This document shows, piece after piece, positions 5,591 to 10,006 of a DNA stretch of 64,000 nucleotides. The position numbers were made by a program, and so were the translations under genes. The notes beneath the pieces were generated by a model. That model searched no databases. It saw only the letters and a list, made by a program, of their open reading frames with translations, and was not told where the DNA came from. Numbering within the stretch: the stretch's first letter is position 1; each line of letters opens with the position of its first letter. Source of the stretch: Pseudoxanthomonas sangjuensis (GTDB lineage: Bacteria > Pseudomonadota > Gammaproteobacteria > Xanthomonadales > Xanthomonadaceae); the NCBI RefSeq assembly GCF_010211755.1, contig NZ_PDWR01000017.1, positions 1 through 64,000 of the forward strand, read 5' to 3'.

Positions 5591-8500
5591 ATGCTGCTGT
5601 CCGACGTCTCGATCAAGCGCCCCGTCTTCGCGACGGTGATGTCGCTGATCCTGATCGTGCTCGGCGTGGTCTCGTTCACCCGCCTGCCGCTGCGCGAGTT
5701 GCCCGACGTCGACCCGCCGGTGGTGTCGGTCAACACCAGCTACACCGGCGCGTCGGCGGCGGTGGTCGAGAGCCGCATCACCCAGGTCCTCGAGGACGCG
5801 ATCAGCGGCATCGAGGGCGTCGACCTGATTACCGCGACCAGCCGCAACGGTCGTTCCGACATCAACATCGAGTTCACCCTGACCCGCGACATCGAGGGTG
5901 CGGCCAACGACGTGCGCGACGCGATCAGCCGGGTCAGCAACCGCCTGCCCGAGGACGTCGACCCGCCGCGGGTGGCCAAGCAGGACAGCGATTCCAGGCC
6001 AATCATGTACCTCAACCTCAGCGAACCACGGCTGAGCGCGGAGGAACTGACCGACTACGCCGAACGCAACCTCGTCGACCAGCTTTCTTCGATCGACGGC
6101 GTGTCGTCGGTGTTCATCGGCGGCGGCAAGCGCTACGCGATGCGGGTGTGGCTGGACGCGGACGCGCTGAGCGCGCGCGGCCTGACCGCCGACGACGTCG
6201 GCACCGCGCTGCGCCGCGAGAACATCGAGCTGCCCGGCGGCAGCATCGAATCGCGGACCCGCGAGTTCGCGCTGCGGGTGATGCGCGGCTACCAGACCCC
6301 GGAGAGCTTCCAGACCCTGGTGGTGGGCAAGGGCAGCGACGGCCACGTCATCACCCTCGGCGAGGTGGCCAGGGTCGAGCTGGCCTCGGAGGAGAGGCGC
6401 GCCTACTACCACGGCAACGGCGTGCCGCAGATCGGACTCGGCGTCGTCGCCACGTCCACCGCCAATTCGCTGGAAGTGGCGCGCAATGTCCGCGCGCTGG
6501 TCGAGCGGGTGTCGCCCAGCTTGCCCAAGGGCATGCAGATGACCGTGCCCTACGACACCACCGTGTTCACCGAGGCCGCGGTGCACGAGGTCTACAAGAC
6601 CCTGGCCGAAGCGATCGCGCTGGTGCTGCTGGTGGTGTTCGTGTTCCTGGGCAGCGTGCGCGCGGCGCTGATCCCGGCGGTGACCGTGCCGGTGTGCGTC
6701 ACCGCCGCGTTCATGGCGCTGTATGCCTGCGGCTTCTCGATCAACCAGCTGACCCTGCTGTCGCTGGTGCTGTCGATCGGCCTGGTGGTCGACGACGCGA
6801 TCGTGGTGCTGGAGAACTGCCAGCGCCGCACCGACCTCGGCGAGCCGTCGCTGCTGGCGGCGCAGCGCGGCACCCGGCAGGTCGCGTTCGCGGTGATCGC
6901 GACCACGGTGGTGCTGATCGCGGTGTTCCTGCCGATCGCGTTCATGGAAGGCAACACCGGGCGCCTGTTCCGCGAGCTGGCCGTCGCGGTGGCCGGCGCG
7001 GTGGCGATTTCCGGTTTCGTCGCGCTGACCCTGACGCCGACGATGTGCTCGATCCTGCTGCGCCCGCATACGCACCGCAAGGGCTTCAACAACTGGGTCA
7101 ACGACCGCCTCGACGCGCTGACCCGCTGGTATCGCGGCCTGGTCGGCAAGGTGGTCGGTCGCGGCTGGCTGCTTGCCGCGGTGATGCTCGCCACCTTCGC
7201 CGCCAGCGGCGTGCTGTTCAAGCTGGTGCCGTCGGAACTGGCGCCGGCCGAGGACCGCGGCGACTTCAACGTGTCGATCACCGGCCCGGAAGGCGCCGGC
7301 TTCGACTACATGGTCGGGCAGATGGCCGAGATCGAGAAGCGCCTGCTGACCTATGCCGGCGACGACAAGCCGGTCTCGCGCGTGATCACCCGCGTGCCCG
7401 GCGGCTTCGGCGGCCAGGGTTCCGCCTTCAACAGCGGCCGCGCCACCGTGTTCCTCAAGCGCTGGGAAGAGCGCGACGTCAGCACGCAGGACGTGATGGA
7501 GGACGTGCGCAAGCGGCTGGCCGACATCCCCGGCGTGCGCATCACCACCGAGGCGCGGCAGGGCCTGGTGCGCGGTTCCGGCCGGCCGGTGCAGTTCGTC
7601 ATCCGCGGCCCGACCTACGAAACACTGGCGCAATGGCGCAACCGGATGTTGCTGCGCATGGAGGAGAACCCGCGCCTGCTCAACGTCGATTCCGACTACA
7701 AGGAAACCCTGCCGCAGATCCGCGTCGACATCGACAGGGCGCGCGCCGCCGACCTCGGCGTGCCGGTGCAGGCGATCGGCAGCACCCTGCAGACCATGCT
7801 TGGCTCGCTGCGCGCCGGCACCTACGAGAAGGACGGCGAGGAGTACTACGTGGTCATGCAGGCGCCGCTGGAGAACCGGCGCAGCCTGACCGACATCTCC
7901 GGCCTGTACGTGCGCTCCGCCACCACCGGCCAGCTGATCCCGCTGTCGAACCTGGTCAAGCTGACCGAGAACGCCGAGGCCGGCACGCTGAGCCGCTTCA
8001 ACCGCATGCGCGCGATCACCCTCAGCGCCGGCCTGGCGCCCGGCTACACCGTCGGCGAGGCGCTGGAATACCTGCGCGGCATCGCCGCCGAGGAGCTGCC
8101 GCCGGAAGCGCAGGTCGACTACAAGGGCGAGTCGCGCGAGTTCATGAGGTCCAGCGGCGCGGTGTTCTTCACTTTCGGCATGGCCCTGCTGGTGGTGTTC
8201 CTGGTGCTGGCCGCGCAGTTCGAGAGCTTCCTGCATCCGCTGGTGATCATGCTGACCGTGCCGCTGGCGATGCTCGGTGCGTTGCTCGGCCTGGCCATCT
8301 GGGGCGTCAGCCTGAACCTGTACAGCCAGATCGGCATCGTCATGCTGGTCGGCCTGGCGGCGAAGAACGGCATCCTGATCGTCGAATTCGCCAACCAGTT
8401 GCGCGACGAGGGCCGCAGCGTGGCCGAAGCGATCGTCGAGGCCGCGACGGTGCGCCTGCGCCCGATCCTGATGACTTCGGTGGCGATGATCTGCGGCGCG

Positions 8501-8716
8501 CTGCCGCTGATGCTGTCCAGCGGCGCCGGCGCCGCCAGCCGCGCCAGCATCGGCGTGGTGATCGTGTTCGGCGTGGCCTTCTCGACGCTGCTGTCGCTGT
8601 TCGTGGTGCCGGCGTTCTATTCGTTGCTGGCGCCGTACACGAAGTCGCCGGAGGCGGTGGCGCACAAGCTGGCCGAACTCGATGCCGAAGTGCCGCCGGT
8701 GGGCGGGCACGAGTAG
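5591..8716 (+). CDS. RND efflux transporter (HAE1/AcrB-like inner-membrane pump)
   Basis: A 1041-aa proton-driven multidrug-type pump with the usual duplicated fold: TM1 after SIKRPVFATVMSL, a large periplasmic loop, TM2-6, a second loop and TM8-12. Proton-relay residues are present: the Asp pair in GLVVDDAIV (about residues 401-402, TM4) and the Lys in GLAAKNGILIVEF (about 925, TM10). These favour the multidrug HAE1 group over metal pumps. The substrate cannot be read from sequence. It follows its adaptor by 3 bp; its stop codon lies two bases before the DUF559 element. Confidence 0.95.
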   Translation: MLLSDVSIKRPVFATVMSLILIVLGVVSFTRLPLRELPDVDPPVVSVNTSYTGASAAVVESRITQVLEDAISGIEGVDLITATSRNGRSDINIEFTLTRDIEGAANDVRDAISRVSNRLPEDVDPPRVAKQDSDSRPIMYLNLSEPRLSAEELTDYAERNLVDQLSSIDGVSSVFIGGGKRYAMRVWLDADALSARGLTADDVGTALRRENIELPGGSIESRTREFALRVMRGYQTPESFQTLVVGKGSDGHVITLGEVARVELASEERRAYYHGNGVPQIGLGVVATSTANSLEVARNVRALVERVSPSLPKGMQMTVPYDTTVFTEAAVHEVYKTLAEAIALVLLVVFVFLGSVRAALIPAVTVPVCVTAAFMALYACGFSINQLTLLSLVLSIGLVVDDAIVVLENCQRRTDLGEPSLLAAQRGTRQVAFAVIATTVVLIAVFLPIAFMEGNTGRLFRELAVAVAGAVAISGFVALTLTPTMCSILLRPHTHRKGFNNWVNDRLDALTRWYRGLVGKVVGRGWLLAAVMLATFAASGVLFKLVPSELAPAEDRGDFNVSITGPEGAGFDYMVGQMAEIEKRLLTYAGDDKPVSRVITRVPGGFGGQGSAFNSGRATVFLKRWEERDVSTQDVMEDVRKRLADIPGVRITTEARQGLVRGSGRPVQFVIRGPTYETLAQWRNRMLLRMEENPRLLNVDSDYKETLPQIRVDIDRARAADLGVPVQAIGSTLQTMLGSLRAGTYEKDGEEYYVVMQAPLENRRSLTDISGLYVRSATTGQLIPLSNLVKLTENAEAGTLSRFNRMRAITLSAGLAPGYTVGEALEYLRGIAAEELPPEAQVDYKGESREFMRSSGAVFFTFGMALLVVFLVLAAQFESFLHPLVIMLTVPLAMLGALLGLAIWGVSLNLYSQIGIVMLVGLAAKNGILIVEFANQLRDEGRSVAEAIVEAATVRLRPILMTSVAMICGALPLMLSSGAGAASRASIGVVIVFGVAFSTLLSLFVVPAFYSLLAPYTKSPEAVAHKLAELDAEVPPVGGHE

Positions 8717-8717
8717 G

Positions 8718-8766
8718 AAGCCCTTCCCCCCTTGAGGGGGGGGAAGGGTTGGGATGGGGGCGCGCC
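8718..8766 (+). repeat. left terminal inverted repeat of the DUF559 element
   Basis: This G/C-tract arm can fold on itself (cccttcccccc...ggggggaaggg). It is followed after a few bases by GGCGAAGTC, which also occurs inside the related repeat pair at 32.0 kb. Confidence 0.85.
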
Positions 8767-8824
8767 GGAGCTGGCGAAGTCGGTGTTCCGGATTTTTTCC
8801 CAAGCCAGCCATCGACACGCTACG

Positions 8825-10006
8825 ATGCTTGGCGTGCCCAGCTGGCTCAAGCAACGTTCCCGGGAACTCCGTTCGCAGATGACGGATGCTGAACGCCGCC
8901 TGTGGGACATCCTGCGCGAACGCCAAATTCGCGGTTTCAAATTCCGCCGCCAGCAACCGCTTGGGAATTACATCGTCGATTTCATCTGTCTTGAGGCGCG
9001 ACTGGTACTCGAAGTCGATGGCGGACAACATGGCGACGAGGCGGACCATCGGCGCGATGCCTGGCTCCGTGGGCAGGGATTTGTCGTGCTGCGTTTTTGT
9101 AACCATGATGTGTTGTCGAACACCGACGGCGTTTACCAGACGATCGAGGCTGAATTGAAAAAGCATCAGGGACCACCGGCTTCGGAAAGATCGCCGTGGG
9201 GTGCGCGCGAGCGTACTTCGGCGCACCCCCATCCCAACCCGTCCCCCGTCAAGGGGGAAGGGCTTAAGGGCAGGGGCGAAGGGCAGAAGAACGAGTTGCG
9301 CCTGTACGGCTTCAACGCCGTGCGCGCGGTGTTCGAGCGGCGGCCGCAGGCGATCCGCAAGCTCTGGCTGGCCGAATCGCGCATCGGCGACCTGAAGCCA
9401 CTGCTGGCCTGGTGCGTGAAGAACCGCATCGGCTATCGCGTGGTCGAAGAAACCGACCTCGACCGGCTCGCCGCCAGCTCGCACCACGAAGGCGTGGTCG
9501 CCGACGTGCTGCGCGTCGAACCGGCGCCGCTGTCGTCGTGGCTGCGCGGATTGCCCGATGGGCCGGCGCTGGCGATCTGGCTGGACGGTGTCGGCAACCC
9601 GCACAACTTCGGTGCGATCCTGCGTTCGGCCGCGCATTTCGGCGTCGCCGCGATCCTGCTGCCGGAGAATTCGACGCTGGCGTTGTCCGGTGCGGCCGCG
9701 CGCGTGGCCGAGGGTGGCGCGGAAAGCGTGCCGCTGGTGCGCCTGCCCGCGTCGCGCGAGGCGATGGCGCAACTGCGCGGGGCGGACTTCGCGCTGGCGG
9801 CGACGGTGGTGCGCGGCGGCAGCGACCTGTTCGCGCAGCGGTTGCCGCAGCGGCTGGTCTACGTGATGGGCGCGGAAGGCGATGGCATGGACGCGAACCT
9901 CGCCGCGCAATGCGACCTGCGCCTGTCGATCCCGGGTACCGGTGCGGTCGAAAGCCTCAACGTCGCGGCGGCGACCGCGGTGTTCCTCGCGCAATGGCGC
10001 CGGTGA
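8825..10006 (+). CDS. DUF559 nuclease-like domain fused in frame to a TrmH/SpoU-type RNA methyltransferase
   Basis: One 393-aa reading frame with two unrelated halves. Residues 1 to about 118 are a complete DUF559 domain, a PD-(D/E)XK-like fold related to Vsr; visible features are MTDAERRLW, FKFRRQQPLGNYIVDF, VLEVDGGQH and VVLRFCNHDVL. Residues 119-156 are the translated right terminal repeat (HPHPNPSPVKGEG). From about residue 157 comes a SpoU methyltransferase with the substrate-binding LYGFNAVRAVFERRP, motif 1 NPHNFGAILRSAAHFG, motif 2 VMGAEGDGM and motif 3 LSIPGTGAVESLNVAAA, probably a 2'-O-ribose methyltransferase of rRNA or tRNA. The methyltransferase's own ATG appears to have been replaced. 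A TTG at 9296 could serve as an internal start, so fusion versus re-initiation is unresolved. Confidence 0.75.
   Translation: MLGVPSWLKQRSRELRSQMTDAERRLWDILRERQIRGFKFRRQQPLGNYIVDFICLEARLVLEVDGGQHGDEADHRRDAWLRGQGFVVLRFCNHDVLSNTDGVYQTIEAELKKHQGPPASERSPWGARERTSAHPHPNPSPVKGEGLKGRGEGQKNELRLYGFNAVRAVFERRPQAIRKLWLAESRIGDLKPLLAWCVKNRIGYRVVEETDLDRLAASSHHEGVVADVLRVEPAPLSSWLRGLPDGPALAIWLDGVGNPHNFGAILRSAAHFGVAAILLPENSTLALSGAAARVAEGGAESVPLVRLPASREAMAQLRGADFALAATVVRGGSDLFAQRLPQRLVYVMGAEGDGMDANLAAQCDLRLSIPGTGAVESLNVAAATAVFLAQWRR
9218..9265 (-). repeat. right terminal inverted repeat of the DUF559 element, translated in frame
   Basis: The reverse complement matches the left arm closely over about 47 bp. In the coding frame it is read as the low-complexity linker SAHPHPNPSPVKGEGLKG. 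This Pro/Gly-rich peptide is known from DUF559 proteins whose C-termini run into the flanking repeat. Confidence 0.85.

Follow-up and report, generated by a model that had tools for sequence, protein, structure and literature searches.

The locus raises two questions: whether a DUF559 domain and an RNA methyltransferase that share one reading frame are made as a single protein, and how the two came to be joined. In the window, the 64,000-nucleotide stretch of Pseudoxanthomonas sangjuensis DNA analyzed here, a single frame runs on the forward strand without a stop codon from its first TTG (8732) through 10006. GTG 8834 lines up with the ATG that opens the same frame in a relative (G024, which shares this frame with P. 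helianthi), and it delimits a gene of 390 amino acids (8834-10006) consisting of DUF559, a linker and a SpoU 2'-O-methyltransferase. The first domain (8846-9157, forward strand; P0001 residues 39-142), which is Vsr/homing-endonuclease-like, belongs to DUF559 (PF04480; 9.9e-39, 132 bits against a gathering cut-off of 20.6). The second half (9302-9988, forward strand) contains SpoU_sub_bind (PF08032; 3.9e-14, 53.2 bits, P0001 residues 191-260) and SpoU_methylase (PF00588; 4.8e-32, 111.4 bits, P0001 residues 280-419); the only other Pfam match to the fused protein, MTES_1575, is below cut-off. An AlphaFold model (m0210df1de932) has two confident domains and between them a linker predicted to be disordered (9176-9283, forward strand), with pLDDT below 50 at model residues 118-124 and 126-153. 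Thus the preliminary description, which had proposed an in-frame fusion of a nuclease-like domain to a methyltransferase lacking its own ATG, is upheld on both points.

The best PDB fold match of the methyltransferase half is RlmB (1gz0), which together with the two SpoU domains places it among the SpoU/TrmH 2'-O-ribose methyltransferases. Because it falls short of the curated NCBIfam cut-offs for both YfiF (PRK10864; 205.4 against 267) and RlmB (TIGR00186; 136.7 against 160.15), we call it only YfiF-like and, from its sequence, class the predicted window protein as a SpoU-family enzyme that bears a DUF559 domain. A second methyltransferase match in the window genome (C11:80182) is 29% identical. 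No sigma-70-type promoter was found, a point against the chimera reading set out below, and none of the 120 matching records in a search for a plasmid-borne copy covers 80% of the fusion. A search for antiphage systems returned DpdF only, at 16 bits, and that reading was dropped.

We favor, with a probability of about 0.77, the reading that 8834-10006 encodes one chimera, in which an intact-looking DUF559 domain would be followed by a complete 2'-O-ribose methyltransferase of the YfiF/RlmB type, with a flexible linker between them that derives in part from a repeat; the chimera probably arose when an upstream DUF559 gene lost its stop codon. The same fusion is found in G024, 78% identical over the whole protein (residues 6-393) and with the same AcrB neighbor just upstream, and a named P. 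helianthi record (L156) has a 420-residue frame identical to that of G024. When the fused protein was compared with 395 genomes of the family, the whole query was spanned, among the matches listed, in the window genome (G000) and G024; these two do not amount to a count for the family, as the G099 fusion described below is absent from those matches. Being common to the window species and P. helianthi, the fusion is old, and the fresh, repeat-bounded insertion that had first been envisaged is not supported. It had also been argued that an anciently fixed DUF559 neighbor would speak against a fusion; the DUF559 is indeed old in two species, but it lies in frame, with no stop between the domains.

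Between G000 and G024 the DUF559 domain has 13, 13, and 51 differences at the first, second, and third codon positions (51 of 77 at the third) and no gap columns, and the linker is also free of indels. For DUF559, dN is 0.137 and dS 1.49 (NG86; dN/dS 0.09); the corresponding dN and dS are 0.145 and 0.84 for the KKHQG...SPWGAR stretch, 0.31 and 0.45 for the repeat-derived stretch, and 0.147 and 0.52 for the methyltransferase. This pattern indicates that DUF559 is translated and is under strong purifying selection. With no stop codon before 10004, translation of the domain must continue through the methyltransferase.

Two neighboring domains could also share a frame by chance, given a genome of high GC content with few stops, or through misassembly. 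High-GC frames are often open, and many long DUF559 frames extend, by eye, only N-terminally into noncoding-looking sequence (L067, L070, L073, L075-L078, L080, L084, L104-L106, L109, and, among others, L188, L191-L193, L195-L197, L200, L203, L224-L226 and L231-L233, all excluded from the counts of fusions below). Against this, the fusion recurs in the independent, named P. helianthi assembly, and the divergence of DUF559 between G000 and G024 is codon-biased. Moreover, among 91 copies, in a comparison for which long frames were chosen deliberately, the frames that stay open for at least 140 codons past DUF559 all enter a recognizable host gene (16/16), and the others stop within 85 codons. 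The shared, codon-constrained fusion refutes chance and misassembly, which we consider extremely improbable.

A third fusion occurs in another genus (G099), with 55% identity in DUF559 and 51% in the methyltransferase with linker. With the three fused DUF559 domains as queries against the 395 genomes, those three scored 197-205 bits and the others listed at most 151; the fork of only these three in the DUF559 tree has support 95/31, and the G099 fusion may have arisen independently. When named genomes were scanned using the DUF559 portion, nine loci emerged, including the P. helianthi fusion. The methyltransferase query found some match in 61/61 genomes, the distant ones often just a weakly similar paralogue. 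The methyltransferase tree places G000 and G005 together (95/86), within a 91/85 fork that also contains G024. G005 has a long branch and no DUF559 match, so either the fusion was lost there or the long branch is misplaced. The upstream neighbor, a gene for an AcrB-type RND transporter (5591-8716, forward strand; PF00873), serves as a synteny anchor: within the stretch searched, the methyltransferase is preceded by an AcrB match, with an intervening gene in some genomes, in G000, G024, G373, G082, G025, G079, G028, G018, G026, G033, G019, and G099. In G079 (L044), G028 (L020), and G019 (L030) an acetyltransferase-like gene, identified by eye, stands between the two; in the fused G000 and G024 the interval is too short to accommodate such a gene.

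Where, then, did the methyltransferase originally begin? By-eye alignment with the tails of relatives suggests that a remnant of its native N-terminus, (TTG)KKHQGPPASERSPWGARER, is preserved at 9155-9214 (forward strand). The window KKHQGPPASERSPWGAR is similar to the native starts MKKPPQAPMQDSPWGKR in G082 and MDKSHRNPPPSSSPWPSR in G005, to which the stretch ahead of the right repeat, LKKHQGPPASERSPWGAR, is likewise close. Tails were read at 35 of 40 loci, the other five yielding none; 33 of the 35 have a PW motif near the start (absent in G079 and G373), followed by a variable, mostly Pro/Arg-rich tail and then an ELRLYG-type beginning of the fold. The native start was therefore likely at 9155, where TTG replaces ATG, rather than at TTG 9296, the start considered in the preliminary description; the native-tail-like sequence upstream weakens a start at 9296 only.

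A possible internal start at 9155 is also the basis of a rival explanation, that one frame gives two products: the working methyltransferase would start internally at TTG 9155 (or 9296), and the chimera would be a by-product of the loss of the DUF559 stop. Several observations are consistent with this. Both TTGs are kept in G000 and G024, the first aligning with the native starts of relatives and preceded in the window, at a distance of five bases, by GAGG, and the second just preceding the methyltransferase fold. Unfused relatives start on their own in this region, and a Met persists at the host start in fusions of DUF559 to PrpF and NadE. The strong constraint on a stop-less DUF559 argues that the chimera is still made, and an ATG at 9155 is retained in neither fused species. 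We consider this two-product reading somewhat doubtful.

The window DUF559 sits between two inverted, REP-like hairpin repeats. The left repeat (8718-8770, no strand assigned), a hairpin with a G-rich tail, is of the same flavor as the one left of DUF559 in P. helianthi/G024, and the right repeat (9216-9265, no strand assigned) resembles a lone repeat at the same place in G373. They pair as 8739-8770/9216-9247 (32 nt, 91%) and 8718-8740/9243-9265 (23 nt, 83%); by eye, both arms consist of a hairpin with a tail rich in G or C. Their inverted-repeat score is 23, whereas controls at 600 random window positions and at 285 positions in the loci of relatives all stay below 16. The terminal inverted repeats first described as about 47 bp are thus present, with arms of about 53 nt (left) and 50 nt (right), and the right one is translated, as had been noted, into a Pro/Gly-rich linker whose core reads HPHPNPSPVKGEGL. 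All three forward frames of the right repeat are stop-free. No Rfam family reaches its gathering score in 8600-9400, and a known RNA family in the repeats was discarded on this ground. The flavor occurs at five places in the genome within 3 mismatches, versus four for a reversed control pattern, so a high-copy REP family is not supported. Elsewhere in the genome, a window-flavor inverted pair of about 180 nt without DUF559 (L004 1480-1670; C6 near 27851) has GGAGCTGGCGAA at its inner edge in common with the window element and by eye resembles a deleted, non-autonomous copy; at L237 (C22:12550) there is a repeat of the same flavor with, by eye, no second arm nearby.

The right repeat does not simply mark the end of a new insert, as the preliminary description had it. 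It lies inside the native tail, past the likely methyltransferase start; G373 has a similar repeat at this spot with no adjoining DUF559; six g26 genomes apparently have, by eye, another flavor there in opposite orientation; and in the G099 fusion both repeats are upstream of DUF559. A right repeat within the native tail and similar repeats elsewhere without DUF559 mean that the repeats are not simple bounds of a new insert, and, with their differing positions in the fused orthologues, led us to reject a fresh insertion ending at the right repeat. Judging from the placement in G000/G024, G099, and G373, the fusion is old and repeats were apparently gained and lost around it; we counted the differing placement in the three fused orthologues against the favored chimera reading. 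The alignment with relatives that had been recommended thus yielded fused relatives and the lone G373 repeat, but no exact empty site for the window insertion at the methyltransferase was recovered among the relatives compared.

The association of DUF559 with repeats extends beyond this locus. The domain is found in 34 of 38 congeneric genomes (85 matches in total) and, across the family genomes sampled, in roughly half (203/395, E up to 1e-20, among the matches listed). At 49 congeneric loci (20 of those fetched were hand-picked, and four were left out, two as duplicates and two on short loci), flanking inverted repeats score at least 16 in 38 and at least 20 in 35; none of the 885 controls (600 random window positions and 285 positions elsewhere in the loci) reaches 16. 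In just 16 of 35 rows did a copy's two arms match each other at least as well as they matched the arms of other copies, because related elements share flavors. When the set was enlarged to 91 copies, 65 had a score of at least 20. Repeat similarity correlates with DUF559 identity (Mantel r 0.49 for these 65 copies, 0.40 for 54 representatives, and 0.28 for 38, each with 0/5000 permutations as high); under the tightest filter, which left 19 representatives less than 60% identical, r is 0.24 and 155/5000 permutations are as high. Outside the family, two of four loci (L157-L160) reach 20, in a Desulfobacillus and a Methylocapsa record. Another repeat-flanked DUF559 of the window genome (L002, C75:85901) lies between genes that we take to be hppD and hmgA.

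The window DUF559 retains D83, E94, D96, and H100 (P0001 numbering), including the acidic residues of PD-(D/E)XK/Vsr-like nucleases. Over 92 copies, E94 and D96 are invariant (92/92), D83 is present in 89, and H100 in 91; by analogy to the family motif these would be catalytic. The best Foldseek match of this half is 3hrl (45% identity in the fold alignment), followed by the homing endonuclease I-Bth0305I (2.3e-05), to whose entry, named mobile intron protein, DUF559 also matches by sequence profile (5.7e-4). The window domain may be an active nuclease. At P0001 residue 123 (9098-9100) it has a Cys where 89 of 92 copies have Trp, which may weaken this copy.

The preliminary description saw DUF559 as a donor of domains to host genes and advised a search for further fusions, and in this the broader survey agrees with it. 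Of the 85 DUF559 copies in the genus, at least 10 share a reading frame with a host gene, a lower bound, as copies with short open frames were only partly fetched and two weak long-frame matches (G006 C1:753707 and G017 C1:2139055) were left out. Genus and family together contain, among the matches listed and with long frames fetched on purpose, at least 19 cases at seven host genes: the YfiF-like methyltransferase (G000, G024, G099), EpmA (G009, G010, G035, G193), PrpF (G405, G322, G387), TilS (G084, G177), NadE (G162), a Mur-ligase-like enzyme with DUF559 inside the host protein (G026, G025, G018, G035), and an MmeI-like DNA methyltransferase with DUF559 between TRD and C-terminal domains (G009, G115). 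Hosts were identified by Pfam in 14 of the 19 cases and by similarity to the others in G010 (EpmA), G025, G018, and G035 (Mur-like), and G387 (PrpF). The frame at L230, possibly a cut-off TilS case, leaves the contig end past DUF559 and was not counted. The MmeI-like insertions at L101 and L194 share the TRD/C-terminal boundary in two genera. DUF559 is just upstream of a NadE-type gene at both L003 (G000 C5:59297; gene by eye), where the pair is unfused, and L228 (G162), where it is fused. Linkers of EpmA fusions and one DUF559 tail (L102, L096, L067) contain extended stretches of Ser-Asn or Ser-Gln beyond the repeat, encoded by short tandem DNA repeats whose length could vary.

These fusions bear on whether DUF559 persists for its own sake, as the nuclease of a mobile repeat element selected through the spread of that element, with the host enzyme a tolerated passenger that gains nothing. 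The repeat flanks and their co-variation with DUF559 point in that direction, as does a fold near that of a homing endonuclease. In fused pairs at five host genes the dN/dS of DUF559 is 0.07-0.24, with no gap columns, and the catalytic-type residues are kept in the 16 fused copies compared, bar H100 in one. The Mur-ligase-like host has an empty site in G002 and G024 and, in G033, a bare repeat scar, in frame, where relatives have the insert. On the other side, fused DUF559s group by host gene in the tree (EpmA 99/93, Mur-like 100/100, MmeI-like 100/91; weakly PrpF, 70/54, and YfiF-like), so descent from earlier fusions seems likelier than repeated joining, and long joint inheritance predicts such grouping; repeated homing to one site would give the same grouping. 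Long retention without mobility would require a benefit to the host. We regard purely selfish persistence as possible rather than probable.

Under the favored chimera reading, a DUF559 gene, of the kind usually found between inverted REP-like hairpins, probably came to adjoin the methyltransferase directly upstream; it would then have lost its stop codon at the methyltransferase start, and the resulting in-frame join would have become fixed. More generally, DUF559 may recognize or process its own hairpin repeats, and the DUF559-repeat unit may land near or in genes, where stop-free repeats would permit read-through and joins in disordered tails or loops would be tolerated. With a right repeat that is stop-free in three forward frames and a disordered methyltransferase tail, the join and later repeat insertions would cost little. 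We infer the order of events, any mobility of the element, present or past, and any use of the chimera by the cell.

The domain is thus tied to a repeat element, to a homing-endonuclease-like fold and to in-frame joins with seven kinds of host enzyme, which suggests a testable route from small selfish nuclease gene to protein domain and an origin for the Pro/Gly-rich linkers (PHPNPLPxGEG-type) of DUF559 fusion proteins. Tentatively, DUF559 might be the mobilizing nuclease of widespread, undescribed hairpin-repeat elements that survive as in-frame parts of host proteins. Such elements would be counterparts of inteins without splicing; they would turn housekeeping enzymes into chimeras with a nuclease, and some would have been retained until they became host domains. 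No paper on the association of DUF559 with repeats was found by title or abstract start among open-licence papers.

The closest organizational parallel is with the REPtrons, REP-gene-REP units with a Y1 transposase (RAYT) gene, in the available portion of Nunvar et al. 2010 (PMC2817692). As described there, they too have a gene between two inverted hairpin repeats, several flavors per genus, and repeat sequences that co-vary with the gene. The REPtron gene is a Y1 transposase, whereas the gene here is DUF559, a PD-(D/E)XK-type domain; Pfam finds no Y1 transposase domain in the fused protein. In addition, Stenotrophomonas REPs reach 37 to 427 perfect copies in that portion of the paper, whereas the window flavor is low-copy, barely above its reversed control, and, by eye, its arms lack the GTAG head. 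By the absence of a Y1 transposase and the low copy number, the locus is not a RAYT element.

I-Bth0305I (PDB 3r3p), a Vsr-like homing endonuclease, shares its fold and motif region with DUF559. In contrast to that case, no intron or intein was found around DUF559, and the nuclease-like domain remains part of the host protein. Pfam results on the fused proteins include no Hint or splicing domain, and Rfam, as above, is silent over the joint; by these searches the window protein is not an intein.

Two known proteins contain the same domain. The COG0565 SPOUT methyltransferase bll5746, noted in 2007 to have a C-terminal DUF559 (PMC1829167), is like the window protein a SPOUT methyltransferase joined to this family; it differs in the C-terminal join, in belonging to another SPOUT family and in its alphaproteobacterial host, and the available part of that paper does not mention repeats. 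Caulobacter VsrA (CCNA_02930) also has a DUF559 domain and, according to the available part of its description (PMC12907096), is required for a DNA-damage response of cells lacking ScmA; it differs in being stand-alone and in its functional link to ScmA, a DNA cytosine methyltransferase. Finally, the palindromic elements of Rickettsia, in the part of a review that is available (PMC10969869), resemble the DUF559 fusions in being inserted in frame in host proteins and translated as an extra segment. What they add is a short palindromic peptide, whereas the DUF559 fusions gain a conserved, strongly selected nuclease-like domain some 100 residues long.
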